Positions 18,872 to 50,585 of a stretch of DNA of 64,000 bases are shown piece by piece. Source of the stretch: Planosporangium mesophilum. Its GTDB lineage: Bacteria; Actinomycetota; Actinomycetes; Mycobacteriales; Micromonosporaceae. Where the stretch lies: NCBI RefSeq assembly GCF_016863255.1, contig NZ_BOON01000047.1, forward strand, positions 1-64,000, in the 5' to 3' direction. The first letter of the stretch is position 1. Each line of letters begins with the position of its first letter. The position numbers and the translations under genes are program-made. The notes below the pieces were generated by a model. The model made no database searches and was not told the origin of the DNA. It saw only the letters and a list, made by a program, of their open reading frames with translations.

Positions 18872-19420
18872 TCAGGCGCTGCCGGAACGTCCTCCGGAAC
18901 GCTCGCCGCCCGGCCGGTCGGAGCGCGTCTGGTCGTCCTCCGGGGACGGCGGGACCCGGCACGAGCGCTCCAGCCACAGCCCCGCGAGGGTGAGGGCGAG
19001 GGCGCCGACCAGCCCCGCGATCGCCTGCGGAAGGTCGCGGCCGATGTGGGTGAGCTGACCGCGCTGGGGCAGCAGCCACGCCAGCAGGCCCGCATAGACG
19101 CCGGTGAACAGCGCGCCACCGAGCGCCGACGCCTTGGCCAGGACCACGTACCAGGCCACCGTCAGCGGGTTGACCGGGGCCGTACCCTCACGACGGTCGA
19201 TGCGCGCCTTGGTGGTCTGCGCCAGCACCGCCTCGACGGCGGCCAGCCCGAGCATGACCAACGGCGGCAGCCAGGGCAGCGTCGGCATCTCCCCGTAGAA
19301 GTTGCTGATCACCAGCCAGGCCACCGCGGCCATGGCCAGGGCCGCCACGCAGAGGGTCGACAGGCTGGTCGGCCGCATGCGCGGCTCGGGGGGCGGCTCG
19401 CCAGGCTTGCTCATCGTCAT
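18872..19420 (-). CDS. DUF3180 membrane protein, 182 aa
   Basis: Four membrane spans (about 22-37, 47-64, 92-117, 131-147) and an arginine/serine-rich C-terminus. The pattern and position, immediately after folK with a 4-base overlap, match the DUF3180 family that accompanies the folate operon across actinobacteria. Its function is unknown; constant linkage to folP-folB-folK hints at a role near pterin metabolism or merely conserved order. It is the last gene of the folP-folB-folK transcript. Confidence 0.85.
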   Translation of the reverse strand: MTMSKPGEPPPEPRMRPTSLSTLCVAALAMAAVAWLVISNFYGEMPTLPWLPPLVMLGLAAVEAVLAQTTKARIDRREGTAPVNPLTVAWYVVLAKASALGGALFTGVYAGLLAWLLPQRGQLTHIGRDLPQAIAGLVGALALTLAGLWLERSCRVPPSPEDDQTRSDRPGGERSGGRSGSA

Positions 19421-19953
19421 GACTCCAAGGACAGGTCAGCGCATGGGCGAACGTTCGGCAGGTCGGCGGCGACGGGCTCGGCGCGGACCAGGTCGTAGAC
19501 CCAGCCGTGCCCGGGCAGTTCTGCGTACGGCTGGATGTCCAGCCAGGGCCTGAGCACGAAGGCGCGCTCGTGCACCCGTGGGTGCGGGAGCACGAGGTCG
19601 GGGTCGTCGGAGACGACCGGCGCCCCGTCCGCGGTCCAGACCGTGATCACGTCCACGTCCAGGGTACGCGGCGCGTACCGCCACGAGGGGTCTCGATCCC
19701 GTCCGGCGACCCGCTCCAGTTCCCGGGCCCTGGTCAGCCAGGCGTACGGGTCGTCGCCGGCGTCGACGGCCAGCACGACCGCGTTGAGGTACGGGGGCGA
19801 CTCGCGCCCGTCCGGCCCGGGGCCGCCCCACGACGGCGTCTCGTACACCCCGGAGACCGCCATGACGAGATCGCCCAGCCCCGCCAGCGCGGCCCGCAGG
19901 TGTGCGGCCCGGTCGCCGAGGTTGCTGCCGAGGGACAGGACGGCCCGCGTCAC
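19417..19953 (-). CDS. folK: 6-hydroxymethyl-dihydropterin pyrophosphokinase (HPPK), 178 aa
   Basis: Adds pyrophosphate from ATP to 6-hydroxymethyl-7,8-dihydropterin, giving the substrate of FolP. The hallmark features are LSLGSNLGDR at the start, the ETPSWGGPG pterin loop, RDPSWRYAPRTLDVDVI (the [KRHD]-x-[GA]-[PSAE]-R-x-x-D-[LIV]-D signature, here 'APRTLDVDVI'), and LPHPRVHERAFVLRPW. GTG 19953 overlaps the folB stop by 4 bases; an upstream extension to 20100 is not family-like. Confidence 0.95.
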   Translation of the reverse strand: MTRAVLSLGSNLGDRAAHLRAALAGLGDLVMAVSGVYETPSWGGPGPDGRESPPYLNAVVLAVDAGDDPYAWLTRARELERVAGRDRDPSWRYAPRTLDVDVITVWTADGAPVVSDDPDLVLPHPRVHERAFVLRPWLDIQPYAELPGHGWVYDLVRAEPVAADLPNVRPCADLSLES

Positions 19954-20348
19954 GCCGGCTCCCGCGTGGTGCCCGCGCCCGGTGCCTGCTCCCGGCCGCG
20001 GGTCAGCGTCACCGCGACGTCGGCGAACTCGTGCGGGATCGGGGCCTGCGGCTTGTGCACGGTGACCGTGGCCGACGACACCCGGGGATCGAGCAGGCAC
20101 GCCGTGGCCAACCGGTCGGCGAGCGTCTCGATCAGGTTGACCGGCTCGCCCTCGACGATCTTCACCAGCCGATCGGCCAACTCGCCGTAGTGGACGGTGT
20201 CGGCGACGTCGTCGCTCGCGGCGGCCGCCGACAGGTCCAGCCGCAGCACCACGTCGACCACGAAGTCCTGACCCTGGGCGCGTTCGAAGTCGTACACCCC
20301 GTGCCGTCCCCGGGCCCGCAGCCCCGCCAGGGAGATGAGGTCGCTCAT
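19950..20348 (-). CDS. folB: Dihydroneopterin aldolase, 132 aa
   Basis: Converts 7,8-dihydroneopterin to 6-hydroxymethyl-dihydropterin plus glycolaldehyde. Features are LAGLRARGRHGVYDFERAQGQ at the N-terminus, TVHYGELADRLVKIVEGEPVNLIETLA (with the catalytic-region Glu), and the terminal KPQAPIP with the conserved Lys. ATG 20348 was chosen because MSDLISLAGL is the normal beginning. A GTG 30 bases upstream also opens the frame, inside a repeated GTGAGCGAACGC/GTGAGCGAGCGC motif that spans the folP-folB gap. Confidence 0.95.
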   Translation of the reverse strand: MSDLISLAGLRARGRHGVYDFERAQGQDFVVDVVLRLDLSAAAASDDVADTVHYGELADRLVKIVEGEPVNLIETLADRLATACLLDPRVSSATVTVHKPQAPIPHEFADVAVTLTRGREQAPGAGTTREPA

Positions 20349-20400
20349 CGCGCCCTGCCCCTGCGTTCGCTCGCTCACGGCGTCACCTCGCTGCGCTCGC

Positions 20401-21234
20401 TCACCGGTGCGCCTCCAACGCCTGCCACACCCGGATGGCATCGACCGTGCCGCGCACGTCGTGTACCCGTACGCCCCACGCCCCGGCCGCGACGGCGAGC
20501 AGCGACGTGGCCGCCGTCGCGACGTCCCGCTCGACGGCCGGGCGCGGCGCGCCGTCGGAGTCCGCGAGCAGCCTGCCGAGGTAGGACTTGCGGCTGGACC
20601 CGAAGAGAACCGGTAGGCCGAGCGACATGATCGCGTCGAGGTGGGCCGAGAGCTGCCAGTTGTGCTCGGCCGTCTTGGCGAAGCCGAGCCCGGGGTCGAG
20701 GATCAGCCGTTCGCGCGCGACGCCGGCGGCGACCGCCGCGTCCGCCCGCTCGGACAGTTCGGCACACACCTCTTTCACCACATCGTGGTAAACGGCCAAC
20801 TCGCCCATGCGACGCGAGTGGCCGCGCCAGTGCATCAGGATCCACGGACAGCCGGCGTCCGCCACGACCCGGCCCATGTCCGGATCGGCCAAGCCTCCCG
20901 AGACGTCGTTGACGATGCCGACGCCCACCCCGATCGCGGCGGCGGCGACCGCGGCGCGTGTGGTGTCGATGCTCATGGGTACGCCCGCCGTCGCGAGTTC
21001 ACGGATGACGGGAAGGACCCGGGACAGCTCGACCTCCGTGGGGACCCGGCCAGAGCCGGGCCGGGTCGACTCGCCGCCGACGTCCACCAGGTCAGCGCCG
21101 TCGGCCACCATCTGCGCGGCGTGCGCCACGGCGGCGTCCAGGTCGGCGTACCGCCCGCCGTCGGAGAAACTGTCGGGCGTCACGTTGAGGACACCCATGA
21201 CAACCGGATGTCGGGCGGCGAGCAGGTCGGTCAC
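20401..21234 (-). CDS. folP: Dihydropteroate synthase, 277 aa
   Basis: Joins p-aminobenzoate to the pterin pyrophosphate. Both DHPS signatures are present: MGVLNVTPDSFSDGGRY near residues 13-29 and LVDVGGESTRPGSGRVP near 50-66, followed by IVNDVSGG and the sulfonamide-region GSSRKSYLG. It heads a minus-strand operon with folB (52 bases later), folK and the DUF3180 gene. GTG 21234 is supported by the -10 box TAACGT seven bases upstream. In related actinobacteria folE and ftsH lie directly beyond folP; here about 13 kb intervenes. Confidence 0.95.
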   Translation of the reverse strand: MTDLLAARHPVVMGVLNVTPDSFSDGGRYADLDAAVAHAAQMVADGADLVDVGGESTRPGSGRVPTEVELSRVLPVIRELATAGVPMSIDTTRAAVAAAAIGVGVGIVNDVSGGLADPDMGRVVADAGCPWILMHWRGHSRRMGELAVYHDVVKEVCAELSERADAAVAAGVARERLILDPGLGFAKTAEHNWQLSAHLDAIMSLGLPVLFGSSRKSYLGRLLADSDGAPRPAVERDVATAATSLLAVAAGAWGVRVHDVRGTVDAIRVWQALEAHR

Positions 21235-21577: not shown

Positions 21578-21877
21578 ATGATGCTCATAGAGGTTGGTCA
21601 GGCGCTGTGGGGCCACGCGCTGTCCCCACCGAGCGCACCCGCCCTCGCAGCCCCCGGCGAGCTGAACACCGAGGGGATCCTCACGTTCTTCGCCAGCAAG
21701 ATCGCACCGATCCTGCTGGCGATCCTGGGAGTGATCTTCATTGGCCGGGCCAGCAAGGGTGAGGTCTCGCGCGTGCTGACCAGTTCGGCGATCGCCATCA
21801 TCGGCCTCGGCTTCATCGCTGGCGCGGCCACACTCCTCATCGTCGGTGACTCGCTGATCAAAATGGTGTTCAAGTAG
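21578..21877 (+). CDS. VirB2/TrbC-like pilin-type membrane protein, 99 aa
   Basis: A short protein with an N-terminal region ending in an Ala/Pro-rich segment (SAPALAAPG, a possible processing site), then two hydrophobic helices (about 37-55 and 66-88) separated by a short basic loop (GRASKGEVS), and a basic end. This is the build of VirB2/TrbC pilins and of their Gram-positive counterparts. By itself the call would be weak; it rests on the VirB3-, VirB4- and VirB6-like genes that follow in the same operon. It would sit in the cytoplasmic membrane as a channel subunit. The ribosome site GGGAAGG is good; a second ATG is the next codon. Confidence 0.55.
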   Translation: MMLIEVGQALWGHALSPPSAPALAAPGELNTEGILTFFASKIAPILLAILGVIFIGRASKGEVSRVLTSSAIAIIGLGFIAGAATLLIVGDSLIKMVFK

Positions 21878-21920
21878 GCCGAGACGGGACTGAACGACCT
21901 GCGAGACGAGTAGGGCGACG

Positions 21921-22286
21921 ATGCGGCTCCGTACCGACGATGACATCTACCGGGCAAGACTCGTGTACCTGGGGCCACCCGGGTACACCCTGCCGGTCCA
22001 GCTCCCATATGCCCAATATGGACTATTTGTCCTGTTAGTACCGTTCTACATGTTCCTCCACTGGCTGGTCACGTTCCAGGGGCCAGACCTGTTCCCGGCC
22101 TGGGAGATCGCGCTCGCGATGGTCACCACGTCGCTGGTGTTCCGCTACGTCGACCCCGACCGACCGGCGCGGATGGTCATCCGCACCGCGCTCACCGACT
22201 GGCGGCACACCCGCGAGCCGCGCCGGGAGCAGTGCGATGCGCGCTTCGTCGCGCGCCGGGTACGCATCCGGGAGGATCTGGCATGA
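21921..22286 (+). CDS. VirB3/PrgI-like membrane protein, 121 aa
   Basis: Residues about 1-33 are soluble; two close hydrophobic stretches (YGLFVLLVPFYMFLHWL and AWEIALAMVTTSLVF) follow; the last 45 residues are basic (DWRHTREPRREQ...). VirB3/PrgI proteins have this hairpin topology and lie directly upstream of the VirB4 ATPase, often overlapping it, as here (ATGA). They help dock the ATPase to the channel. The gene starts 43 bases after the pilin-like gene behind a modest AGGGCGACG site. Confidence 0.6.
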   Translation: MRLRTDDDIYRARLVYLGPPGYTLPVQLPYAQYGLFVLLVPFYMFLHWLVTFQGPDLFPAWEIALAMVTTSLVFRYVDPDRPARMVIRTALTDWRHTREPRREQCDARFVARRVRIREDLA

Positions 22287-25200
22287 CGCGGGGACGCTAC
22301 GACGGCGAGGTGACCGGAGCCGAGGACGATCCGGGCCATTCGGTGGACTACGACGGCGGCCTGCAGGCGGCGGTCGAGGGCGGCCGCATCGCCGTCCTCC
22401 AGGGCGGTGGGTCGAACGTGGCAGGCAACGGGTGGTCGGTTCCCCCTCGGGCCGGCAACGACGAGCCGCTCGCCGACATCGACTCGCCGTTCCTGGGACT
22501 GGTCGGCGGCTCGGACGCCGCGCCGCCGCAGCCGGTGGTCGACCCGACCGATCCGCTGGTGGTCGATCCCACCGTCATCGACTCCACAGTGGTCGCCCCG
22601 ACCGCCGTCCCGCGTACCGGGGCGGAGCGCAACGGTGGAGACCGGGCGGCGGCGGAGCGCAACGGTGGAGACCGGGCGGCGGCGGAGCGCATCGCCGCCG
22701 ACTGGGAGGCCCGGTCCCGCAGGGAACCGCCTGCAGACCGCGCGGTCGCCCGCACCCGCGAGTCGTCGCTGATCCTGCCGTCCTCGACCCGCGAGCGCGG
22801 CCGCAGTCCGCTCGAAAGGGCCCCGAAGCCGCGACGCAAGGACCGCGACCCCGCCGTCGAGCTGGCGATCACCGAGATCGCCGGGCACCTGACGTTCACG
22901 CCGAACTCGGTCACCGCCTGGTACTGGCTGCCCGAGGTGCGGTGGGCGTTCCGCCCGGACGCCGAGCGCGAGGCGCTGCTGGCGGCGATCTCCGAGCAGT
23001 ACGCCGGTCTGGCCGGCTTCCGCATCCACCTGCGCCGCACCACCCGGCCGTTCCCGGCGGGCCAGTGGGCCCGGGTGGTCGACGGACACACCCCGAACCC
23101 GCTGCCCGGCGTGCCGGGCGCACCGTCCTGGTCGGACCACCTCGTCGCGGCCCAGCAGCACCTGCTGTCGGTCAACCACGCCGAGGGCCAGACCTACCTG
23201 GGCATCACGTTCGCCCGGCGCACCCTCGGCGACACGCTCTCCGAGCGGTTCGGGCGCATGTTCAACAAGGGTGTCAGCGGCAGCGAGCGCCGCCGGATGG
23301 CGCGCACCATCGAGCAGTTCGACGAGGTACTGGGCGCGTTCGGCATGCGCGGACGCCGGGTGACCGTACGGGAGCTGGAGTGGCTGCTGTACCGGTCGGT
23401 CGCGCTCTGCATGCAGCCGCCGGGCGAACTGTCCCCGGTCGAGCACGGCAACTGGGAACGCGGCGATCTGCTCGCCCTCACCGAGCAGATCGAGCGCTAC
23501 CGCACCCCGTACGGCTCGACGGTCAAGCTGGTCAACCGGATGACCGGCGAGGAGCGGCACGTCGCCGTGCTCGCGGTGGGCCGGATGGAGCCGCTGGACA
23601 TCCCCGAGCGCCACGAGCCGTGGCTGCACTTCCACGAGCGGCTGCCGTGGCCGATGGAGCTGTCGTCGCGGGTGGACATCCTCGGCCCGTCCGACTCGTT
23701 CCGCAACCTCGAGCACCGGCTCCGCCTCATCCGATCCCAGCAGGTCGACTACGCCGAACACGGCATCGACGCGCCGCCGGAGCTGGAGCGGCTGGCCAAG
23801 CGGGCCCTGACCATCGGCGACGACATCACCACCGGCCTGCCGGTGGACTCGTCCCGGGCGCACGGCTGGCACCGCATCGCCGTCAGCGGGCGGACCCGCG
23901 AGGAGTGCCTGGAGCGGGCCCGGCGGGTCACCCAGCTCTACTCCCGCGAGATGCGCATCTCCTTGCAGCACCCGAAGAACCAGGACTGGCTGGCCCGGGA
24001 GTTCATCCCCGGCGAACCCCTCGCCAACACCGGGTACCTGCGGCGGATGCCGATCAAGCTGTTCGCCGCCGCGCTGCCACAGGCCGCGTCGACCGTCGGC
24101 GACCGCCGCGGCGACCTCATCGGGCGTACCTCCGGGACGTGCCGGCGCCCGGTGTTCCTGGACCTCCACTTCCCGATGGAGGTACGCGAGCGCTCCGGCC
24201 TCGCGGTGTTCGTCGCCGAGCCCGGCGGCGGCAAGTCCACCCTGCTGGGCGCGCTGGGCTACCTCGCCGCCCGGCGCGGTATCCAGGTGACGCTGCTCGA
24301 CCCGTCCGGTCCGCTGGCCCGGCTGTGCGCGATGCCGGAGCTCGCCCCGTACTCCCGCGTGCTCAACCTGACCGGCTCCGAGCAGGGCACCCTGGCCCCG
24401 TACGCGCTGATCCCCACGCCACTGCGCTCCCACTTCGCGGCCGGGCCGACCGGCGATCGCGAGTTCGAGATCGCCGTCTCCAACGCGCGGGCCGAGCGCC
24501 GGATGCTGGTACAGGACATCTGCATGATGCTCGTCCCGCCGCAGGTCGCCCGGGAGGCGTCGACCGCCACCCTGCTGCGCCACGCGGTACGCCAGGTGCC
24601 GGCCGAGGAGACGTCCACCCTGGACGACGTGGTGGCGCTGCTCCAGAGCATCGGCGACGACGAGTCGCGGGAGCTGGGCAACCTGCTCCTGGACACCGCG
24701 GAGATGCCGCTCGCGACGCTGTTCTTCGGGCAGCCCGGCTCCGGGTCGCTGTCGTCGGACACCGCGCTGACCGTCATCACCATGGCCGGGCTGCGCCTGC
24801 CCGACCTCAAGATCGAGCGCGAGTACTGGTCGGCCGAGGAGTCGCTCGCCCTGCCGATGCTGCACACCGCGCACCGCCTCGCGGTCCGCCGCTGCTACGG
24901 CGGCGAGATGGGCCGGCGCAAGCTGGTCGGCCTCGACGAGGCGCACTTCATGGAGGGATGGCGCTCCGGCCGCTCCTTCCTGGTCCGCCTGGCCCGGGAC
25001 AGTCGAAAGTGGAACCTCGCGGCGCTGGTCGCCTCCCAGAACCCGCGCGACATCCTCGGGCTGGACGTACAGAACCTGGTCTCCACCGTGTTCGTCGGCC
25101 GGATCGCCGAGGACACCGAGATCGCCGAGGAGGCGCTGCGCCTGCTGCGCGTGCCGACCGGCGTCGGGTACGAGCAGACACTCGCCGCCCTGTCCCAGGC

Positions 25201-25390
25201 GGACACGTCGTCGGAGTCCCGGCTGGGGTTCCGCGAGTTCGTGATGCGAGACGTCGACGGCCGCGTCCAGAAGCTACGCGCCGACGTGTCGTACGTCCCG
25301 GACCTGCTGAAGTACCTGGACACGACGCCAGCGGCCGCCGGTGGAGCGCCGGTGTTGCCGACCGTCCAGCTCGACGAGCCGGAGGACTGA
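22283..25390 (+). CDS. VirB4/TraE-type secretion ATPase, 1035 aa
   Basis: The motor of the putative channel. After a disordered N-terminus (1-190, with a 10-residue tandem repeat) comes a VirB4-type N-domain and then the RecA-like ATPase. Walker A is AEPGGGKST (645-653), the segment LDPSGPLARL lies near 675, and Walker B is GLDEAHF (Asp885-Glu886). The arginine/glutamine block ASQNPRDILGLDVQNLVSTVFVG lies near 920. There are no membrane spans. The length exceeds typical VirB4 (about 800 aa) because of the N-terminal extension. It overlaps the VirB3-like gene by 4 bases and is followed by the VirB6-like gene after 3. It is not a VirD4/TraG coupling protein or FtsK/TraB: the N-domain and the DEAH-type Walker B favour VirB4. 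Confidence 0.75.
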   Translation: MTRGRYDGEVTGAEDDPGHSVDYDGGLQAAVEGGRIAVLQGGGSNVAGNGWSVPPRAGNDEPLADIDSPFLGLVGGSDAAPPQPVVDPTDPLVVDPTVIDSTVVAPTAVPRTGAERNGGDRAAAERNGGDRAAAERIAADWEARSRREPPADRAVARTRESSLILPSSTRERGRSPLERAPKPRRKDRDPAVELAITEIAGHLTFTPNSVTAWYWLPEVRWAFRPDAEREALLAAISEQYAGLAGFRIHLRRTTRPFPAGQWARVVDGHTPNPLPGVPGAPSWSDHLVAAQQHLLSVNHAEGQTYLGITFARRTLGDTLSERFGRMFNKGVSGSERRRMARTIEQFDEVLGAFGMRGRRVTVRELEWLLYRSVALCMQPPGELSPVEHGNWERGDLLALTEQIERYRTPYGSTVKLVNRMTGEERHVAVLAVGRMEPLDIPERHEPWLHFHERLPWPMELSSRVDILGPSDSFRNLEHRLRLIRSQQVDYAEHGIDAPPELERLAKRALTIGDDITTGLPVDSSRAHGWHRIAVSGRTREECLERARRVTQLYSREMRISLQHPKNQDWLAREFIPGEPLANTGYLRRMPIKLFAAALPQAASTVGDRRGDLIGRTSGTCRRPVFLDLHFPMEVRERSGLAVFVAEPGGGKSTLLGALGYLAARRGIQVTLLDPSGPLARLCAMPELAPYSRVLNLTGSEQGTLAPYALIPTPLRSHFAAGPTGDREFEIAVSNARAERRMLVQDICMMLVPPQVAREASTATLLRHAVRQVPAEETSTLDDVVALLQSIGDDESRELGNLLLDTAEMPLATLFFGQPGSGSLSSDTALTVITMAGLRLPDLKIEREYWSAEESLALPMLHTAHRLAVRRCYGGEMGRRKLVGLDEAHFMEGWRSGRSFLVRLARDSRKWNLAALVASQNPRDILGLDVQNLVSTVFVGRIAEDTEIAEEALRLLRVPTGVGYEQTLAALSQADTSSESRLGFREFVMRDVDGRVQKLRADVSYVPDLLKYLDTTPAAAGGAPVLPTVQLDEPED
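22622..22681 (+). repeat. Perfect 30-bp tandem duplication inside the VirB4-like gene
   Basis: Two identical 30-bp units beginning GCGGAGCGCAACGG encode AERNGGDRAA twice, and a third partial unit follows. The repeat is in frame and in the disordered N-terminus, so it likely changes only linker length. Confidence 0.9.
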
Positions 25391-25393
25391 TCG

Positions 25394-27319
25394 GTGGAGG
25401 CGAAGCTCCAGCACCGGGTGGCGTCGCTGGTGCTGGCCGTGTTCGTGGGCGCCGTGGCGACCCTGTTCGCGGGCGCCGCACCGGCCCTGGCCGCGCCGGT
25501 CGCGCAGGCACCGGGCAGCCTGTGCACCACGGACGAGTGGCGCAACCCGGCCAACTTCGAGAAGTGCGTACAAGGGCTGCAGGACGTCGGCTCGGAGCGG
25601 CTGCAGTGTGTGCACGCTCCCACGCCGGGCGCCCCCGACTCGGGGATGGCCGGCTGGTTCGCCTCCCGTACCGACTCCTATGACAGGCCCGGTCCGAAGG
25701 GGCTCTACACCCGGTACGGCTACGCCGGGTACGACTACACGACCTACGACATCAACTGCGGGCAGGAGCTGATCCACCCCGAGTACAAGTTCGAGCACAC
25801 CGTCGCCAACGGCGGGTTCATGGTCGCGACCTCGATCGTCGGCGCCTCGAACGCACTGCGCGAGCGAGCCTGGAACCCGAAGGCGATGTGGGGATGGGCC
25901 GACCCGCTGGTCGACCGGGCCACCAAGGCCGTGTACGCCAAGGTGTTCACCGTGTTCGGGGCCGTCACGCTCGCGATCATCGGCCTGTACCTGCTCTGGC
26001 GCGCCCGCCAGTCCGACCTGTCCAACGCGATGACGACGGCCGGCTGGGCCGTAATGGTCATGGTCGTCATCACCGCGATCGCGCAATGGCCGACGTGGTC
26101 GGCGAACCTCGCGGACAAGACGCTCGTCGGGTCGCTCGCCGTGATCCACGACGCCGTCGGACCGCCGTCGCAGGACATCCCGGCCGACCAGTGCCGGAAC
26201 CCCGATCCACAGGGCTGTGTCGACCACCGGACGCCGGCGGTACGCGCCAGCGACACCGCGACCGACGGCATGCTCTACCGCAACTGGCTGCGCGGCGAAC
26301 TCGGCTCGGCCGACAGCGAGACCGCCCGCAAGTACGGGCCGGTGCTCTACGACGCGAAATCCTTCAGCTGGGGCGAGATCCAGGACATCCGCAAGGACCC
26401 CCAGCAGCGGCCGGTCCTCATCGAGCAGAAGCAGAACCGCTGGAACAAGGTCGCCGAGCAGATCAGGAACGAGGACCCGGAGGCGTACGAGTACCTCCAG
26501 GGTAAGAAGGGCATGGAGCGCATCGGTGCCGGCTTCATCGCGATCCTGGCCTCCCTGTTCTTCGCGCTGTTCGACCTCACCGCCTCGATCCTCGTCCTGC
26601 TGGGCTTCCTGATCTTCCGGTGGGCCGTCATCGCCGCGCCGATCCTGGGCACGGTCGGCCTGCTCCGCCCTGCCAGCAGCGGTCTGCGCCGGCTGGCCAA
26701 CGCCGTCATCGCGGCGATCTTCAACATCATCATCTTCGGTACCGGTGCGGCGATCTATCTGTTCGCGGTCGACCTGGTGATGAGCACCGCTTCCCTGCCC
26801 GGATGGCTGCAGGTCGTCCTGATCTGGCTGACCGGTCTGGTGGGCTGGCTGCTGCTGCGGCCGTACCGCCGGATCACCCAGCTCGGCGGGAAGGACTCCT
26901 CCCAGGCGGTCACCTCGGTCGGTAGCTGGCACCGGCTGTTCTTCCGGGACATGCGACAGGCGGCCGCCCTCAGGCTCATCGAGGAGGGCGGCACCCGCGA
27001 GCCGGCCGGCGGCCGGGCCGGTCTGGCGCAGACCACCCAGCGGCCGGAGTCCCGTACCGAGTCGGTGGTGGTCGCCGGCTCCAACGTGGCGGGGTCGGGC
27101 CCGGCCGCCGAGCGTCCCGAGACCGGTCGCAGCGCTCCCGAGCCGGCGACCGCTGGCGCGCAGGCAGCGCGCCGACGGCTCGAGACCGGCCAGCGCTGGA
27201 CCGAGCCCGACGTGGCGGACGGCCCCCCGACCTACACCGTCTACCGGCCGGACTCCGGGGACGTCACCGTGCCGGCGACCTCGGTCCAGCGACCGGAGTC
27301 GGCAAGGATGCCCAGGTGA
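25394..27319 (+). CDS. VirB6/TrbL-like polytopic membrane protein, 641 aa
   Basis: A signal-like N-terminus (VLAVFVGAVATLFAGAAPAL) leads to an exported domain with several cysteines (about 50-130). There follow two spans near 185-235, a soluble loop of about 110 residues, and four or five strongly hydrophobic spans from about 375 to 495 (GAGFIAILASLFFALFDLTA and onward). The last 145 residues are disordered and charged. This arrangement of a periplasmic head, a clustered membrane core and a cytoplasmic tail is that of VirB6/TrbL channel components. GGAGGA seven bases before GTG 25394 supports the start. It is coupled to the ATPase gene (3-base gap) and precedes the VirB8-like gene by 6 bases. 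Confidence 0.65.
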   Translation: MEAKLQHRVASLVLAVFVGAVATLFAGAAPALAAPVAQAPGSLCTTDEWRNPANFEKCVQGLQDVGSERLQCVHAPTPGAPDSGMAGWFASRTDSYDRPGPKGLYTRYGYAGYDYTTYDINCGQELIHPEYKFEHTVANGGFMVATSIVGASNALRERAWNPKAMWGWADPLVDRATKAVYAKVFTVFGAVTLAIIGLYLLWRARQSDLSNAMTTAGWAVMVMVVITAIAQWPTWSANLADKTLVGSLAVIHDAVGPPSQDIPADQCRNPDPQGCVDHRTPAVRASDTATDGMLYRNWLRGELGSADSETARKYGPVLYDAKSFSWGEIQDIRKDPQQRPVLIEQKQNRWNKVAEQIRNEDPEAYEYLQGKKGMERIGAGFIAILASLFFALFDLTASILVLLGFLIFRWAVIAAPILGTVGLLRPASSGLRRLANAVIAAIFNIIIFGTGAAIYLFAVDLVMSTASLPGWLQVVLIWLTGLVGWLLLRPYRRITQLGGKDSSQAVTSVGSWHRLFFRDMRQAAALRLIEEGGTREPAGGRAGLAQTTQRPESRTESVVVAGSNVAGSGPAAERPETGRSAPEPATAGAQAARRRLETGQRWTEPDVADGPPTYTVYRPDSGDVTVPATSVQRPESARMPR

Positions 27320-27325
27320 GATGAG

Positions 27326-27856
27326 ATGCGACCGGTTCTGCGACTGCTCGGTACGCGGTACGGGATAGCCCTCGTGCTCGCACTGCTCGTACTGGGCGTC
27401 GTGGGCGTCATGCGGGGAGTAGCCGGCTCGTACCGGCAGACGTTGGGGACCGCGGTCGAGTCACCGCGCAGCAGCAGCATCGACCCGACCGCGGGGAATG
27501 ACAGCCTACTAAGTCCGGAAAGCCCCGCGCCGCCGGTCACCAGTCCCGGCGCGGCCGAGCCCGCCACGGTGGCCACCGACTTCGTCCGCGCCTGGCTCGC
27601 CCACGACGGTGTCACCCCCGAGCAGTGGCGGGCGGGCTTCGCCAGGTACGCCACCCAGACCCTGCGTGACAAGCTCAAGGACACCGACCCGGCGGGCGTC
27701 CCCGCACAGCGGATGACCGGCCCGGTGTCGCTGATGAACCGCTCCGCGACGTTTGTGGAGGCCAGCATGCCGCTGGACACGGGGACCGTACGGCTGCGCC
27801 TGCTCGCCACGAACGGGCGCTGGCTCGTCGACGGGGTCGGCTGGGAGCGGACATGA
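27326..27856 (+). CDS. VirB8/TcpC-like bitopic membrane protein, 176 aa
   Basis: One N-terminal membrane anchor (YGIALVLALLVLGVVGVM), a flexible Ser/Pro stretch, then about 100 residues with an NTF2-like pattern (ATVATDFVRAWLAHDGVTPEQW, then NRSATFVEASMPLDTGTVRLRLLATNGRWLVDGVGW). VirB8 and Gram-positive TcpC proteins share this topology and fold and act as assembly hubs in type IV secretion. Sequence similarity across that group is low, so the assignment rests on topology and position between VirB6- and VirB1-like genes. The next gene overlaps by 4 bases. Confidence 0.55.
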   Translation: MRPVLRLLGTRYGIALVLALLVLGVVGVMRGVAGSYRQTLGTAVESPRSSSIDPTAGNDSLLSPESPAPPVTSPGAAEPATVATDFVRAWLAHDGVTPEQWRAGFARYATQTLRDKLKDTDPAGVPAQRMTGPVSLMNRSATFVEASMPLDTGTVRLRLLATNGRWLVDGVGWERT

Positions 27857-29010
27857 CGACGGACTCCCCCGAGCCACGGCGCCCCCGGATCGGGCTGCTC
27901 GTCGCGCTGACCGCGGCGCTCGCCCTGCTGTGCTGCGGCGGCGGTACGGTGGCGTTCTTCCTCGACGGGCTGAACGGCTCGAAGACCCTGAACGCCTTCA
28001 GCGCGGACTGCGGCAAGCCGGGCCTCGTCGTCGATCCGAACGGCGACCTGGACCGGGTCGGCGGCATCGACGCCGGGCAGACCCGCAACGCGGCCATCAT
28101 CATCGCCGTCGGACAGCGGATGAACGTGCCTCCCCGCGGCTGGGTCATTGCGATCGCGACCGCGTGGCAGGAGTCCAAGCTGAACAACCTCGGCTTCCTG
28201 GGTGCCCGCAACGACCACGACTCGCTGGGCCTGTTCCAGCAGCGGCCCAGCCAGGGCTGGGGATCACCCGAGCAGGTGCGGGACCCGCAGTACGCCGCGA
28301 CGAAGTTCTACGAGAAGCTGCTGCGGGTCCCGCGGTGGGACAGCCTGCCGCTCACCGAGGCGGCGCAGAAGGTCCAGGCCAGCGCCTACCCCGACGCGTA
28401 CGCCAAGCACGAGGCCCTGGCCGCGCAGATCGTCAACAATCTCGCCGACGGCGCCGCCCGCTCGGTCGGCTCGCTGACCGACCTGCGCTGCCCGGAACCC
28501 GGCGAGATCGCGGCGTCGGGCTGGACCATCCCGGTCCGCGCAGAGGTCGGCTCCGGTTTCCGCACCCTGGACCGGCCCAACCACTACGGCGTGGACCTGG
28601 CCGTGCCGAAGGGCACCGTCGTCCGCGCGGCCGCGGCGGGGGTCGTGATCACCGCGAAGTGCAACGCGAGGAGCGCCGGCGGCAGCAACCTGAGCTGTGA
28701 CAGCGACGGCTCCCCGGCCGTCCTCGGCTGCGGCTGGTACGTGGACATCCTGCACGCCAACAATGTGATCACCCGGTACTGTCACATGGTGTCGAAGCCG
28801 GACGTGGTGCCGGGGCAGACCGTGACGGCGGGCCAGCAGATCGGGCACTCGGGCTCGAGCGGCAACTCCTCCGGCCCGCACCTCCACTTCGAGGTCCACC
28901 ACAACGGCGACGCCGGCAACAACGGTGCGATCGACCCGGTGGAATTCATGCACCAACAGGGCTCCCCGCTCGGGACCGCCAAGAACCGGGGTGGGAGGGG
29001 ATCGCAGTGA
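27853..29010 (+). CDS. Two-domain cell-wall hydrolase: transglycosylase-like plus M23 peptidase, 385 aa
   Basis: After a membrane anchor (14-37) comes a lysozyme-like domain with the probable catalytic Glu107 in TAWQES and the SLGLFQQRP motif near 124. Then comes an M23/LytM endopeptidase with all zinc ligands: His244 and Asp248 (HYGVD), His343 and His345 (HLHFE). In type IV systems a VirB1-type hydrolase opens peptidoglycan for the channel; in Gram-positive versions it is often such a two-domain protein. A separate role in wall remodelling is possible. Its GTGA end overlaps the next gene by 4 bases. Confidence 0.85.
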   Translation: MTTDSPEPRRPRIGLLVALTAALALLCCGGGTVAFFLDGLNGSKTLNAFSADCGKPGLVVDPNGDLDRVGGIDAGQTRNAAIIIAVGQRMNVPPRGWVIAIATAWQESKLNNLGFLGARNDHDSLGLFQQRPSQGWGSPEQVRDPQYAATKFYEKLLRVPRWDSLPLTEAAQKVQASAYPDAYAKHEALAAQIVNNLADGAARSVGSLTDLRCPEPGEIAASGWTIPVRAEVGSGFRTLDRPNHYGVDLAVPKGTVVRAAAAGVVITAKCNARSAGGSNLSCDSDGSPAVLGCGWYVDILHANNVITRYCHMVSKPDVVPGQTVTAGQQIGHSGSSGNSSGPHLHFEVHHNGDAGNNGAIDPVEFMHQQGSPLGTAKNRGGRGSQ

Positions 29011-29615
29011 CCGATCCGCTCGCGGGGTGGAACTTCGACGCCCTGTCCGCCCGGCGACCGGCGCCGATCGTACCGATGCCGGCCGCCGCGCATCAGGCCG
29101 TACGCGGGAAGAGGGTCGTCATCGGTCTGCCCGGGCTCGGCTGGCGCGACGACATGCGGGCCGACTCTCCGGTCGTGCAGGGCAGCCGGACGTACGTGCC
29201 GGTACTGCCCGAGCAGGAGTGGTACCGCGCCGAGGCCGAACAGATCGAGGCGTTCGCACCGCTGGTTCCGATCGAGCGGGTATGGGTGGAGACGCTCGCG
29301 GTCTCGTCCACGACGGAGCAGCGCGGCGGGCCGGATCTGGTCTCACGGCTCGTGTCGCTGGACGCGCCGCCCCACCGGGATCCGGTACCGGTACGCGACG
29401 CCGTCCGCCTCACCGGCCGGCGCGTGGTCAGGGTTGCCGGCGACAAGACCGGCCGCGACCAGCGCGATCTTCGCGCCGTGACCGAGGCGTACACCAGTTC
29501 CGACGGCGACATCTGCGTACGGGTCGCGACGGAGCTGGAGTGGTACCGCTGGGCCTGGAGCGGCACCGCCCCGAAGACCCTCGAGGTGCCCGTACACCTG
29601 CTGTGGCTGGAGTAG
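29007..29615 (+). CDS. Unknown protein at the end of the T4SS-like operon, 202 aa
   Basis: I do not recognise it. It is soluble, lacks a signal peptide and begins VTDPLAGWNFDALSARRPAPIVPMPAAA, followed by a conserved-looking GLPGLGWRDDMRA and a tryptophan-rich end (ELEWYRWAWSGTAPKTLEV). The regular alternation of short strands suggests a beta-rich fold. The 4-base overlap with the hydrolase gene ties it to the secretion operon, so it may be a substrate, chaperone or cytoplasmic accessory. Its stop codon abuts the stop of the converging gene. Confidence 0.5.
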   Translation: MTDPLAGWNFDALSARRPAPIVPMPAAAHQAVRGKRVVIGLPGLGWRDDMRADSPVVQGSRTYVPVLPEQEWYRAEAEQIEAFAPLVPIERVWVETLAVSSTTEQRGGPDLVSRLVSLDAPPHRDPVPVRDAVRLTGRRVVRVAGDKTGRDQRDLRAVTEAYTSSDGDICVRVATELEWYRWAWSGTAPKTLEVPVHLLWLE

Positions 29616-30206
29616 TCAGCCGGTCTGCTGCGCCCCACATACCCGCCAGTCGCCGTTCTGGCGCCGCATCGCGAAGTTCCAATTCTGGAACGACTCCGAA
29701 GGCTGGCCGGTCTGCTCCGGCACCTGGATCGTCAAGCGCGCCGAAACCGTCGCGGTCTGTTTGTTCTCATGTGCCGTGAAATTTTCCCAGCCGACGGTGA
29801 TGTGGATGCCGAACCGCTGTTCGCGACCGGCGATGTCTGCCACCTTCTGCTCGATGTCACCGATATCTTCCGGCCGTCCGCAGGTGAACCGCGCCGCCTT
29901 CGACTTGTCGCGGTCGTCGAACGTGGCTTGAAGGTACTGCCGGACGACCACGGCCGGCGTGCTCCGGTCGGGCTCGCTGACCCGGTAGTAGACGAAGTAC
30001 CCCACGCCCAGGCCGCCGAAGCAGAGCAGCGTGGCAGTGCCGAGTACCACCGCCAGCACGATCCCGGTGACCCGTCCCGGGCGGCCCTTGGCGGCCGGCG
30101 GGGCCGATGCGGCTTCCTGAGCGCCCGCGGCGGGCGTTCCCAGCGTCTCATCGGCGCCGTTCTCCGGCTGCTGTGACGGTACGGGCGGCTTCGGCTCGTC
30201 GCTCAC
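29616..30206 (-). CDS. Membrane protein with extracytoplasmic NTF2-like domain, 196 aa
   Basis: A disordered, Pro-rich cytoplasmic N-terminus (1-45) is followed by one span (VTGIVLAVVLGTATLLCFGGLGVGYFVYY) and an outer domain with an NTF2-like pattern: AVVVRQYLQATFDDRDKSKAARFTC, strands with SARLTIQ, and NGDWRVCG. Actinobacteria have many such single-span proteins (Mycobacterium Rv0361-like); their role is unknown. A Cys pair may form a disulfide. GTG 30206 is the natural start; longer readings run back through the neighbouring gene. It is the last of four minus-strand genes beginning with hypX. Confidence 0.6.
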   Translation of the reverse strand: MSDEPKPPVPSQQPENGADETLGTPAAGAQEAASAPPAAKGRPGRVTGIVLAVVLGTATLLCFGGLGVGYFVYYRVSEPDRSTPAVVVRQYLQATFDDRDKSKAARFTCGRPEDIGDIEQKVADIAGREQRFGIHITVGWENFTAHENKQTATVSARLTIQVPEQTGQPSESFQNWNFAMRRQNGDWRVCGAQQTG

Positions 30207-30252
30207 CGCCTGAGCGTAACGCGGACCGTCGATGCCGGGCGGAGCGCTCGGC

Positions 30253-31083
30253 TCACTGCGACGCGGCGTTCCAACGGATCCGGACCTGGTGGCCCCGCGC
30301 GTCGATGTAGGTCTCCTCGCGCGGTGGGGACGCGGGCGCTGCCGGTCGGCCGGGCGCCACGCCGGAACGCGGCTGATCGGGCGCCACGCCGGAACGCTGC
30401 TGATCGGGCGCCGTGCCGGAACGCGGCTGATCGGGCACCACGCGGGAGCGCGGCAGGACCGGCGCCACGGCGGGGCGCGGCGTGACCGGGAAGCGGCCGA
30501 GCTCACCGCCGCCCTTCGTCCCCCGAGAGCGGCCCACCGGCACCGCCCCGGCGCCGAGCAGGTCCGGCAGCTCCGGGTCGATCTCGACCGACGACCAACC
30601 GTCGTCCCCGGCAGGATCAGGCGACGGAGCCGCGGGCTCGCCCGACGGAGCCGAGGTCGACGCGGACGCCAGTACCGACACCGCGTGCCCCACCTCGACC
30701 CTCGGTTCGGTCAGCCGGGCCGCGGCGTTGGCGTACGTCTCGTTCAGCGCATCGACGATGTCCCGGACCATCGCGTCGCGCCCAGCCGGTGAGGACGACG
30801 AGGCGTCCAGGCCGCGGATCGCCGCCTCGGTCGCGTCCGCCGCGGCCAGCAGTTGCGCGTGGTTGTAGCGGGCGACGCCGGCGGCCGCCCGCGCCCGGGC
30901 CACCAGGGCCCGTACGTCGTCGGCGTGCGCCCGACCGGCCGGCGAGTCCCAGGCCCGCTCGACGGCGGACAGGCCGGCCGCCAGCACGTCGGCCCGCTCC
31001 TCGATCAGTTCGGCGGCCCGGGCCCAGTCTGCGGCGGCCCTGCGCAGGTTGTCGGCCACCACCGGCAGGGACTCACCGGACAT
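30253..31083 (-). CDS. WXG100-like protein with Pro-rich repeat tail, 276 aa
   Basis: Residues 1-95 form a helical hairpin of WXG100 type: two long Ala/Arg helices around AWDSPAGRAHADDV, with Trp and Gly in place of the usual W-x-G turn. Residues about 125-235 are low-complexity and include four PDQPRSGVA-type 9-residue repeats. The end is ETYIDARGHQVRIRWN. Such helical-hairpin plus linker proteins are common type VII secretion substrates or partners in actinobacteria. The gene overlaps the 96-aa gene upstream by 11 bases, suggesting a co-translated pair. Secretion is inference; no EccC-recognition motif (YxxxD/E) is obvious. Confidence 0.5.
   Translation of the reverse strand: MSGESLPVVADNLRRAAADWARAAELIEERADVLAAGLSAVERAWDSPAGRAHADDVRALVARARAAAGVARYNHAQLLAAADATEAAIRGLDASSSSPAGRDAMVRDIVDALNETYANAAARLTEPRVEVGHAVSVLASASTSAPSGEPAAPSPDPAGDDGWSSVEIDPELPDLLGAGAVPVGRSRGTKGGGELGRFPVTPRPAVAPVLPRSRVVPDQPRSGTAPDQQRSGVAPDQPRSGVAPGRPAAPASPPREETYIDARGHQVRIRWNAASQ
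30353..30460 (-). repeat. Four imperfect 27-bp tandem units in the WXG-like gene
   Basis: Units begin GGCGCCACGCCGGAACG on the plus strand (30353, 30380, 30407, and a diverged one at 30434) and encode PDQPRSG-type repeats. Confidence 0.85.
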
Positions 31084-34210: not shown

Positions 34211-34813
34211 TCAGCGCTGCAGGATCAGGCTCATCGCCTCGGCGCGGGTCTTGGCGTCGTCACGGAGCAGTCCGCGGACGGCGGAGGTGACGGTACGCGA
34301 GCCGCCCTTCCTGATGCCGCGCATCGCCATGCACAGGTGCTCGCACTCCAGGACCGCGATCACACCGCGTGGCTCGAGCTGCTTCATCAGCAGCTCGGCG
34401 ACCTGCGTCGTGAGCCGCTCCTGCACCTGCGGTCGGCGCGCGAACACCTCGACCAGCCGGGCCAGCTTCGACAGTCCGGTGATCCGGCCGTCCTCCCCCG
34501 GGATGTAGCCGATGTGGGCCACCCCGTGGAACGGCAGCAGGTGGTGCTCGCAGAGGCTCATGACCTCGATGTCGCGGACGAGCACCAGCTCTTCGTGGTT
34601 GGCCTCGAACGTGGTGGTGAGGACCTGCGCCGGGTCGACCCGCAGGCCGGCGAAGAGCTCGGCGTAAGCCCTGGCGACCCGGGCCGGCGTGCGGCGCAGG
34701 CCGTCACGGTCCGGGTCCTCGCCCACGGCGATGAGGATCTCCCGGACCGCCGCCTCGATGCGCGGCAGGTCGACGGCCTTCTCGACTCTGATACCACCCA
34801 GCCGCCCGTTCAC
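34211..34813 (-). CDS. folE: GTP cyclohydrolase I, 200 aa
   Basis: First step of folate synthesis: GTP to 7,8-dihydroneopterin triphosphate. Zinc and active-site residues are in place: [12 protein letters not shown] (Cys and His ligands), [34 protein letters not shown], and the third ligand in [14 protein letters not shown]. The length is normal. GTG 34813 gives a family-like N-terminus. The frame is open further upstream (an acidic stretch before [10 protein letters not shown]) without a standard start codon, so a rare upstream start cannot be ruled out. It follows ftsH by about 100 bases and is separated from folP by the 13-kb accessory segment. Confidence 0.95.
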
Positions 34814-34914
34814 AAGACGGGCGGCCAGGTAGTCCAGCGATTCCTCGTACTCAACCGCGTCGTCGGACTCTGGTTCCGTGGAGCTTCCCGACGAGAGCGG
34901 ACCCGATACGGTGG

Positions 34915-36939
34915 TCAGTTCGCGCCATCCCCGGTCGAACGCTCGCCCGACGCCACGCCACTGCCGGCACCCGCGCGGGCCTCGTCACCGCCGGCCGAGG
35001 CCGTCGGCGACGGCTTGCGCAGCGCATCCAGCTCGGTGGTCGGCACGGTCGGCAGGTCGCCGCGGCGGCGCTTGCCGTTGCCGCTGTATGGCGCCATCGG
35101 CGGCCGCTTGACGACGCGGGCGCAGATCCGGGCCATGTCGGTCTGGGAGATGGTCTCCTTCTCCATCAGCTCCTCGACGATGTTGTCGAGGATGTCCCGG
35201 TACTCGACCAGGATCTCCCACGCCTCGTCGTGCGCGATCTCGATCAGCCCCCGCACCTCGGCGTCGATGTCGGCGGCGACCTTCTCCGAGTAGTTGCGCT
35301 CGTGCCCCATGGTCCGGCCGAGGAACGGCTCACCGTCGGTCTGGCCGTACTTCACGGCTCCCAGCCGGGAGCTCATGCCGTACTCGGTGACCATCGCGTG
35401 GGCGACGCTGGTCGCCTTCTCGATGTCGTTGCCGGCGCCGGTGGTGGGCTCGTGGAAGACCAGCTCCTCGGCGGCCCGGCCACCCAGCGCGTACGCCAGG
35501 GTGTCGATCAGCTCGGAGCGGGTCTGGGTGTACTTGTCCTCGGTGGGCAGCACCAGCGTGTGCCCCAGCGAGCGGCCGCGGGACAGGATCGTAACCTTGT
35601 GCACCGGCGCGGCGTGCGGCAGTGCCCAGGCCACCAGGGCGTGGCCGCCCTCGTGGTACGCGGTGACCCGCTTCTCGTGCTCGCTCATCACCCGGGTACG
35701 GCGCTCCGGACCGGCGATCACGCGGTCGATCGCCTCCTCCAGGAAGTCGTTGGTGATGGCGCGCTTGTCGACGCGGGCGGTCAGCAGGGCCGACTCGTTG
35801 ATCACGTTGGCCAGGTCGGCGCCGGTGAAGCCGGGGGTACGCCGGGCGACCGAGTCGAGGTCGACGTCGGGCGTGAACGGCTTGCCCTTGGCGTGCACCC
35901 GCAGGATGGCCTTGCGGCCCTCCATGTCCGGGCGGTCGACGGCGATCTGCCGGTCGAACCGGCCCGGGCGCAGCAGCGCCGGGTCGAGGATGTCGGGCCG
36001 GTTGGTGGCGGCGATCAGGATCACGCCGCCCTTGGTGTCGAAGCCGTCCATCTCGACCAGCAGCTGGTTGAGGGTCTGCTCGCGCTCGTCGTGACCGCCG
36101 CCGAGGCCGGCACCGCGGTGGCGACCCACGGCGTCGATCTCGTCGACGAAGACGATGGCGGGGGCGTTCGTCTTGGCCTGCTCGAACAGGTCGCGGACAC
36201 GGGAGGCGCCGACACCGACGAACATCTCGACGAAGTCCGAACCGGAGATCGAGTAGAACGGCACCCCGGCCTCGCCTGCGACGGCGCGGGCCAGCAGCGT
36301 CTTACCCGTTCCGGGCGGCCCGTACAGCAGTACGCCCTTGGGGATCTTCGCGCCGAGCGCCTGGTACTTCGCCGGCGCCTGGAGGAAGTCCTTGATCTCG
36401 TGCAGCTCCTCGACCGCCTCGTCGGCGCCCGCCACGTCGGCGAACGTCGTCTTGGGCGTGTCCTTGGAGATCAACTTGGCCTTGGACTTGCCGAAGTTGA
36501 GCACCCTCGAGCCGCCGCCCTGCATCTGCGACATGAACAGCAGCAGGAGCACGACCAGCACGCCGATCGGCAGCAGGTTGACCAGCAGCCCGACGACCAC
36601 GCTGTCCTTGGTGACCTTGGCGTCCCAGGCGTTGATCTTGCCCTGCGACTTCAGCGTGTTCAGTTCGGTGTATATATCCCGAATGGCGAGGGCGGGAACC
36701 TGCGCCTGGATCTTGTTCGTGCCGTCGACGTTCTGCTTGAGGTCGAGGGTGAGCGTCTGCTCCTTGTCCTCGAGCAGGGCCTTCTTCACATTGCCAGCCT
36801 GAAGCTGCGCAAGAGCCTGTGAGGTGTCGACCTTCTTGTAGGTGGCTCCACCGGTGAAGAGCGTGCTCGCCGCAATGGCACCGAGGATCACAATGATGAA
36901 CCAGACCACTGGCCGGCGGAAGAAACGGGTCCGTTCCAT
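34915..36939 (-). CDS. ftsH: ATP-dependent membrane zinc protease FtsH, 674 aa
   Basis: A hexameric membrane AAA+ protease that degrades misfolded and short-lived proteins. Two spans (11-28 and about 113-136) flank a small outer domain. The AAA+ module has Walker A GPPGTGKT (Lys213), Walker [13 protein letters not shown] and the second region of homology [20 protein letters not shown]. The zinc site is HEGGH (429-433). The C-terminus is an extended Ser/Gly/Ala tail, as in other actinobacterial FtsH. It is transcribed toward folE. The 254-base region upstream, up to hpt, must hold its promoter. Confidence 0.97.
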
Positions 36940-37193
36940 ATCGTTGTCGGGCGCGATGCGGCGCCCGGCACCTCCTGATCCCAGAAGACAGTGCTCACGC
37001 CGGGTCCGTATCGACGCGAGGCCGCGTGCGCCAAGGCGGCGGCACGTCGGTTATTCGACGGTACACCGTGCGCGCCACCAACGCGGACGAGCACCGTCTC
37101 TGCCAGGAGGTGCTGGTCCCTCCCTCTAACCAGGGGAAGAGAGATGAAACCAGGCTCAGACACGGGTTTAGCCGGCGAACCGGATATGCCCGT

Positions 37194-37766
37194 TCAGCTT
37201 TGGGCGTACACACCCTTCCGGAGGACGCCCACGTAGGGCACCTCGCGGTAGCGCTCGCTGTAGTCCAGGCCGTACCCGACCACGAACTCGTTCGGGATGT
37301 CGAAGCCCACGTACTTGACCGGTACGTCGACCTTCACGGCGTCCGGCTTGCGCAGGAGCGCGACGACCTCGACCGAGGCGGCCGACCGGCTCTGGAGGTA
37401 CTTCAACAGCCACGAAAGAGTGAGCCCGGAGTCGACGATGTCCTCGACGACGATCACGCGCCGGCCGGCGATGTCGCGGTCGAGATCCTTGAGGATCCGG
37501 ACCACCCCGGAGGAGGTGGTGCCCTGGCCGTACGACGACACGGCCATGAACTCCATCTCCACCGGCGGCCCGTACCGCCCCAGCGCGCGGGCGAAGTCGG
37601 CCATGAACATGACCGCGCCCTTCAGGACGCCCACCAACAGCACGGATTCGGAGCTCCCGTGGTCGGCGGCGACCTGCTTGGCCAACTCGTCGATCTTTTC
37701 GCGAATCTGATCTTCACTGACGATCACGCGGTCGATGTCGGCGGCGTGCCAGTTGCCCTCGGCCAT
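37194..37766 (-). CDS. hpt: Hypoxanthine (purine) phosphoribosyltransferase, 190 aa
   Basis: Salvages hypoxanthine and guanine with PRPP to IMP and GMP. The PRPP-binding motif VIVVEDIVDSGLTL lies near residues 99-112. The flexible-loop segment EFMAVSSYGQGTTSSG precedes it, and the purine-binding KYVGFDIPNEFVVGYGLDY is near the end. The length is usual. In this lineage it normally lies between tilS and ftsH; here a small ORF, a GlxA-type regulator and ggt have come between it and tilS. Confidence 0.95.
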   Translation of the reverse strand: MAEGNWHAADIDRVIVSEDQIREKIDELAKQVAADHGSSESVLLVGVLKGAVMFMADFARALGRYGPPVEMEFMAVSSYGQGTTSSGVVRILKDLDRDIAGRRVIVVEDIVDSGLTLSWLLKYLQSRSAASVEVVALLRKPDAVKVDVPVKYVGFDIPNEFVVGYGLDYSERYREVPYVGVLRKGVYAQS

Positions 37767-46403: not shown

Positions 46404-46544
46404 CCGGTACTCCTACCACGAACGACCGGTAAGACGAAACTCGTATCGACCGCCTACCATCCGTGGCGTGAGGGAGCGTAGGGAGCGAACCGGAGGCTCA
46501 GTGCTTCGGCGAATGCCGTCACCGAGCGCCAGCGGGGTGACGGT

Positions 46545-50525: not shown

Positions 50526-50585
50526 GGAACTCTTAACGCAAATCGGAACCCACGGGAGATCGAAACCCGCCAGAATGTAACGACC

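Follow-up and report, generated by a model that had tools for sequence, protein, structure and literature searches.

A stretch of 64,000 nucleotides from Planosporangium mesophilum (assembly GCF_016863255.1, contig NZ_BOON01000047.1, positions 1 to 64,000 of the forward strand; hereafter, the window) encodes a real, conserved, and domesticated type IV channel that is a vertically inherited core system of the Micromonosporaceae and that probably has a job other than conjugation. Six channel genes, VirB2-, VirB3-, VirB4-, VirB6-, VirB8-, and VirB1-like (B2, B3, B4, B6, B8, and B1 below), form a tight operon at 21578-29010, and a gene for a 202-aa protein follows at 29007-29615. A sequence-only reading of this DNA had described six such genes in canonical order followed by an unknown 202-aa gene, coupled for the most part by 4-base overlaps and short gaps; all seven open reading frames (ORFs) were found at the coordinates it gave, and the junctions are, in order, a gap of 43 bases, an overlap of 4, gaps of 3 and 6, and two further overlaps of 4, the last between the B1 gene and the start of the 202-aa gene.

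The 1035-aa VirB4-like ATPase (22283..25390, +) matches the AAA_10 profile (5e-22) and, under that model's cut-off, TcpF (NF052333; 9.5e-20). Its catalytic motifs are as previously noted from the letters alone: within Walker A, G648, G650, and K651 are invariant across 11 aligned VirB4s, and the DEAH motif starts at residue 885. Walker A and Walker B are kept in all 71 VirB4 ORFs recovered from relatives' loci. The protein begins with an extension of ~180 aa (window 22283-22850) that is of low complexity and variable between loci, with the ORF reaching 1946 aa in locus L103. Additionally, 13 of 79 loci begin within ~340 bp of the VirB4 match, and assemblies may break there; in L064, a long short-unit repeat lies directly upstream of VirB4.

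The remaining channel genes encode membrane or membrane-anchored proteins. B2 (21578..21877, +) is a small protein of 99 aa with two transmembrane (TM)-like segments; it resembles the product of the opening gene of a Streptomyces plasmid module, but weakly (E 0.001). The 121-aa VirB3/PrgI-like protein (21921..22286, +) has homologs encoded at the second position of three plasmid modules (E 4e-13 to 1e-8) and is the best conserved product of the operon (mean pairwise identity 0.91). B6 (25394..27319, +; 641 aa) is polytopic with six TM-like segments, has plasmid homologs at E 1e-29 to 2e-44, and matches the CD3337/EF1877 family at 1.4e-6, under the model's cut-off. The bitopic VirB8/TcpC-like protein (27326..27856, +; 176 aa) was assigned from a plasmid match (E 1e-12), its topology, and a structure model; in the predicted model, a single TM helix is joined through a disordered linker to a well-predicted domain of three helices and four strands with NTF2-like topology. 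The VirB1-like protein (27853..29010, +; 385 aa) combines a TM anchor, a muramidase-like domain (match to 8b2e at 1e-15 over residues 70-193), and an M23 peptidase (Peptidase_M23, 4.6e-26); profile, muramidase match, and topology together show that the operon contains a membrane-anchored peptidoglycan hydrolase. The profile search suggested in the sequence-only reading thus placed VirB4 and the M23 protein and left B6 under the cut-off, and B2, B3, B8, and the 202-aa protein had no significant match in Pfam or NCBIfam. Identities for B2, B3, and B8 come from BLAST against a small database of plasmid-locus proteins with the same gene order, together with topology.

Plasmid relatives of this module exist. 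A tblastn search with VirB4 against 72,556 plasmid records returned 159 matches, all below 60% identity and mainly from Rhodococcus and Streptomyces. Three linear plasmids, from Nonomuraea sp. NBC_00507, Streptomyces sp. NEAU-S7GS2, and Rhodococcus (pNSL1), share the order B2-B3-B4-B6-B8-B1 with the window, whose six channel proteins each match at least one of the three (B2 in one only, E 0.001; B3 4e-13; B8 1e-12); the B8 of the Rhodococcus plasmid gave no match to the window B8. The plasmid modules resemble the window operon in gene order, in a VirB4 31-38% identical to its own, and in homology of the other genes; however, they are plasmid-borne, have longer tree branches, and in most cases have an FtsK/SpoIIIE motor gene nearby. 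The Nonomuraea and Streptomyces plasmid VirB4s additionally lack the long N-terminal extension of the window protein. The earlier assignment of the operon to the Gram-positive type of conjugation channel is supported. Likeness to the pCW3 TcpF, or FATA-type, monoderm type IV secretion systems (T4SSs) is seen in the NF052333 match and in the weak match of B6 to the EF1877 family, although the scores are far under the model cut-offs and neither a relaxase nor TcpA was seen beside the window operon.

The plasmid-type DNA motor was sought with an FtsK/SpoIIIE profile built from four plasmid motors. This profile matches 6/9 plasmid loci, three of the six being its own source and one match being weak (L130, 5.7e-7); L129, which has no annotation, and the Bacillus-type loci L132 and L133 lay outside the search. 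It matches 0/92 chromosomal or related loci (3.1-24.1 kb each, covering up to ~10 kb either side of VirB4), and its only match in the window is EccC of a type VII secretion system (T7SS). No relaxase was found among 29 window proteins in a Pfam scan (about half of the 56 ORFs predicted), and no genome-wide relaxase search was made. As the sequence-only reading had remarked, no relaxase, VirD4 coupling protein, Tra/FtsK gene, or integrase was seen adjoining the operon.

For VirD4, this absence holds for the neighborhood but not for the genome, in which one VirD4-type protein is encoded on contig C18, beside an SCO6880-family protein (6.7e-97), a VirB4_CagE-type ATPase (9.4e-8), and an M23 protein. 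This second, SCO6880-type transfer locus (C18, 193000-212000) has a transposase-like gene (identified by eye) nearby, and 554 plasmids encode relatives of its VirD4; it gives the impression of a distinct system of the mobile type. The C18 VirB4-like ATPase resembles the ATPase of plasmid SLP2 (E 2.8e-9) and shows no match to the window VirB4. We had considered the window VirB4 to be the only one in the genome, which is true for its type and for AAA_10 but was given up in view of this distant SCO6880-type ATPase, which the AAA_10 profile had not picked up. The FtsK-type motors of the genome are a septal FtsK, the T7SS EccC within the window, and actinomycete integrative and conjugative element (AICE)-like Tra proteins, all except EccC identified by eye.

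The distribution of the channel is that of a core system. Of 19 Micromonosporaceae genomes, the source among them, 18 encode a single VirB4 with no internal stop in the match; the remaining genome is 69% complete. Among other families of the order, 5/12 genomes gave a VirB4 match, two of them (G028 and G030) at 62% identity. A scan of 84,980 species genomes yielded 243 stretches encoding a relative, from which the best 79 distinct loci were taken; 78 of the 79 locus titles name Micromonosporaceae or genera that we take to belong to it. Of these loci, 59 yielded all seven ORFs. Among the 20 others, 13 contigs stop just upstream of VirB4 and one (L048) downstream of it; two (L024, L064) carry unrelated DNA upstream, with assembly joins at repeats suspected; and four have a tblastn match for B6 (L012, L049, L082) or B4 (L070) and no ORF under the start-codon rule used.

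Divergence within the operon largely follows that of its chromosomal surroundings. In the 44 loci with all 14 genes of the distance table recovered, mean pairwise identity was 0.910 for B3, 0.852 for B4, 0.796 for folP, and 0.588 for B8; channel-gene distances correlate at 0.84-0.94 with those of folP and at 0.87-0.97 with those of the ATP-binding cassette (ABC) gene. For VirB4, the correlations are 0.90 with folP, 0.95 with the ABC gene, 0.91 and 0.93 with two membrane genes, and 0.86 with the NTF2-like gene. All seven genes are under purifying selection: across six close pairs, all 42 values of omega (the ratio of nonsynonymous to synonymous substitution rates) are below 0.48 and mostly within the range of folP (0.10-0.26). 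In a midpoint-rooted VirB4 tree of 37 rows picked from the loci, a branch supported at 100/100 sets the 21 chromosomal rows apart as one group, and the plasmid rows, which carry a long-branch warning, fall outside this group on longer branches. The patchy distribution expected of a horizontally moving element was not observed; VirB4 is near-universal in the family, synteny is kept, and distances track those of the neighboring genes.

The position of the operon inside a folate locus, reported in the sequence-only reading, was likewise confirmed. On one side, divergent from the operon, lie folP, folB, and folK (19417..21234, -; named by eye); on the other lie folE, ftsH, and hpt (34211..37766, -; folE by PF01227). 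A gene for an NTF2-like membrane protein (29616..30224, -; assigned by eye, DUF4440 0.031, under the cut-off) is convergent with the operon. A survey of synteny, as that reading had proposed, recovered the order folP-B2-B3-B4 in 63 of the 65 loci whose upstream sequence exceeds 4 kb, and B4-B6-B8-B1 followed by the 202-aa gene and then the convergent NTF2-like gene in all 72 loci with enough downstream sequence, a conservation beyond chance. Across the crown of the family, the channel sits between folE and folP. In G028 and G030, the same six-gene module lies between ribE/hisE/hisG-like genes and infC (names by eye).

Other genes near the channel were also recorded. WXG100-like and EspC-like genes adjoin the operon (window 30253-31363; weak matches only, 0.018 and 0.015) and had no counterpart in the other loci by tblastn (E 1e-3); a conserved cargo of this kind was considered and dropped on that result. 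A type VII (ESX-like) locus with EccD, EccC, and a mycosin-type subtilase (PF19053, PF01580, PF00082) lies at window 45018-51830, ~15 kb from the operon. In four family members, a divergent membrane protein family is encoded upstream of the channel (L110 6353-7144, L111 7309-8121, L113 14078-14989, L151 ~1583-2230); it has no match in the window and is possibly a lost partner.

The 202-aa protein (29007..29615, +) is soluble and consists of a tandem duplication of a ~70-residue SH3-like module: its halves align at 1.6e-6, and the predicted model (predicted local distance difference test score, pLDDT, 88) shows weak similarity to SH3-like barrels. The gene is present in 17/19 family genomes, the two that lack it (G005, G008) being highly fragmented. 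On its standing as a seventh component of the system, as first read, the findings point both ways. Counting against a channel role, the gene is remote from the channel in G007, G014, G016, and G017, and G028 and G030 carry the channel without it; in G007 and G014 it is one gene from folE, in an ftsH-folE neighborhood, and in G026 it adjoins whiB-like and cofD-like genes (names by eye). In its favor, four of the five plasmids that carry a member of this protein family carry the channel as well. Relatives at E 1e-3 were found on those 5 of 72,556 plasmids only; the four are Streptomyces plasmids with this VirB4 type and rank among the eight best VirB4 records, although they may represent one plasmid lineage and so would not be independent cases. 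The idea of the gene as a mere bystander was withdrawn on account of these four plasmids. On the three Streptomyces plasmids read, the relative shares the strand of the module but is found 4-6 kb further downstream, outside the operon. Of the plasmid stretches searched with the 202-aa protein, L003 alone matched, the relative of L126 lying just beyond its stretch. The fifth plasmid (Thermobispora) has no annotated channel gene within 20 kb. The protein may have arrived with the channel from such a plasmid; equally, its family may just be frequent on plasmids and chromosomes alike. We do not decide between a partner of the channel and a neighbor within the folate locus.

Three further observations concern the surroundings of this gene. 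Two linear plasmids of Streptomyces carry, after the relative (L003 24512-25147, L155 15626-16258), a gene annotated as a plasmid partition protein, and a ParA gene is located close to the Thermobispora match. A protein of DxDGDG-like repeats is encoded beside the 202-aa gene in three members of the family (L147 4396-5034, L148 6268-6882, L149 4296-4970).

Among published systems, the nearest precedent for function is the cmd cluster, which normal sporulation requires. In Streptomyces coelicolor, cmdABCDEF (SCO4126-4131) is a chromosomal cluster, found in four Streptomyces species, that encodes a VirB4-like ATPase and membrane proteins (PMC2782261). Mutants of cmdB or the whole cluster sporulate poorly, branch aberrantly, and missegregate chromosomes, and a cmdA mutant is like wild type; transfer of an SLP2-derived plasmid was normal after cmd deletion (data not shown in PMC2782261). 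Additionally, cmdBCDEF and tgdA mutants overproduce actinorhodin (PMC6585502). Taken with tgdA (SCO4132), Cmd shares with the window channel a chromosomal location, a VirB4-like ATPase, and membrane proteins, and has a lytic transglycosylase gene and dispensability for plasmid transfer (PMC2782261, PMC6585502). However, Cmd was grouped with SLP2 and SCO6878-6881 (PMC2782261), and the gene order of SLP2 is unlike that of the window operon. Orthology to Cmd, which had been expected for SCO4127, was abandoned after a comparison made through the SLP2 relative of CmdB (SCO4127), not CmdB itself; because the SLP2 ATPase has no BLAST similarity to the window VirB4, we read Cmd and the window channel as parallel domestications.

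The explanation that we consider somewhat probable, by analogy with Cmd, is that the operon encodes a domesticated conjugation channel that works for the host at the hyphal envelope, with growth or sporulation as its most plausible setting. A VirB2-B3-B4-B6-B8-B1 module of the actinomycete linear-plasmid type would have been captured by a chromosome ahead of the split between the Micromonosporaceae and at least two related families, and would have been inherited as a core system since, a course that tree, synteny, and selection support within the genomes sampled. Going by homology, the VirB4 ATPase on the inner face would drive a VirB3/VirB6 pore with a VirB2-like subunit, and VirB8 and the muramidase/M23 protein would carry the path through the cell wall. 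Since no partner ATPase or relaxase neighbors it, the channel most likely no longer moves a mobile element; it may instead act at the hyphal envelope in growth or sporulation, as Cmd does in Streptomyces.

Several points weigh against this explanation. The functional role proposed for this locus rests on sequence and analogy, the link to development being drawn by analogy with Cmd, and the SLP2 ATPase, a relative of CmdB according to PMC2782261, has no BLAST similarity to the window VirB4 (best E 1.9). The VirD4-type protein elsewhere in the genome leaves room for use in trans. VirB4 distances correlate less with those of the short neighbors folK (0.75) and folB (0.61), and omega for B8 and B1 exceeds that of folP in some pairs (up to 0.40 and 0.47). 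The direction from plasmid to chromosome is read off a midpoint-rooted tree and, given that root, is the simpler reading, short of proof. Finally, folP is not near the channel in G007, G010, G014, G016, G028, and G030; the first four of these branch together beside the crown, and the folate position is thus a trait of the crown group.

That the channel is domesticated, as the sequence-only reading had supposed, is upheld by conservation, tree, selection, and synteny; the protein secretion it attached to this becomes one option of several. Delivery of effectors or envelope enzymes by a protein-export machine is in our view unlikely. VirD4-less T4SSs do export proteins in diderms (Ptl, Brucella), and one Gram-positive case of protein export, with VirD4, is the 89K island of Streptococcus suis (PMC12857230), yet no conserved candidate for a substrate gene was found, the adjoining WXG100-like and EspC-like genes being without counterpart in other loci, and the known two-step export route would presumably need a periplasm. 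A VirB4-powered channel without VirD4 that would import DNA into, or exchange it among, cells of one kind, like archaeal Ced/Ted or Helicobacter ComB, seems about equally doubtful. Ced and Ted are chromosomal, domesticated, and keep VirB2-, VirB4-, and VirB6-like parts, with no archaeal relaxase homologs known (PMC9905601); ComB works without VirD4, VirB4 being its sole ATPase (PMC12857230); and the window operon has a Ced/Ted-like core plus B3, B8, and B1. However, Ced/Ted are archaeal, Ced imports DNA, and no B8 or wall hydrolase is described for them in the available text of PMC9905601; ComB works with an outer membrane and periplasm, neither of which this host has; and inspection of the loci by eye, with no profile search made, revealed no DNA-processing or competence gene immediately adjoining the operon.

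Less probable again is a common mating channel that mobile elements would exploit in trans, each supplying the coupling protein or Tra motor itself. The genome does contain AICE-like FtsK/Tra proteins (by eye) and one VirD4-type protein, but the latter sits in the SCO6880-type locus with its own VirB4-like ATPase; such conservation would not be expected of a channel kept for parasites alone, and deletion of the Cmd analog left plasmid transfer unchanged (PMC2782261). The suggestion of a fossil or decaying conjugation module, which the sequence-only reading had offered because DNA-processing genes were not seen adjoining the operon, has hardly any likelihood left: with no stop in the VirB4 match in 18/18 family genomes, catalytic motifs in 71/71 ORFs, and purifying selection on all seven genes, we regard it as refuted. 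Plasmid relatives might equally bring to mind an ordinary integrative and conjugative element (ICE) or integrated plasmid with its remaining genes just outside the operon; the housekeeping genes on both flanks in the window, the place beside folP in 63/65 loci, and vertical inheritance refute this for the crown of the family and make it extremely improbable overall.

A bolder reading, which we put forward tentatively and at somewhat less than even odds, is an ancient, vertically inherited, VirD4-less monoderm channel that may move a host substrate during filamentous growth. The substrate could be chromosomal DNA, passed from one sister hypha or cell to another, or else a factor for the wall or for differentiation, perhaps with the 202-aa protein as a cytoplasmic adaptor that arrived with the channel from a plasmid. 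Such a channel would be the bacterial counterpart of Ced/Ted and a domestication independent of Cmd.

The literature search, whose coverage excluded most subscription journals, found among the papers listed no account of a system of this kind spanning the family. In Micromonospora lupini, MiLup08_42651 ("VirB4 protein-like") is the sole T4SS entry and is listed among genes of unknown function (PMC4182475). It comes from the same strain as our locus L044 and, going by the strain name, would be the L044 gene; the available text of PMC4182475 describes no system, conservation, or function for it. A survey of 275 actinobacterial genomes identified 17 putative T4SS-type ICEs (PMC3218068); because integrase, coupling protein, and relaxase were all required, an operon of the window type would have escaped it.

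According to a 2025 review, nearly all known functions of Gram-positive T4SSs are in DNA translocation, and their use for effectors is a long-standing question (PMC12857230). A family-wide core channel stripped of its mobile context, and present in genera with which laboratories work, makes that question testable for Gram-positive T4SSs. Our best guess, by analogy with Cmd, is that the channel contributes to sporulation or to growth of the hyphal envelope, with DNA exchange and protein export as possible functions. If it is true that this channel and Cmd are separate domestications, actinomycetes would have turned conjugation channels into cellular machinery twice.

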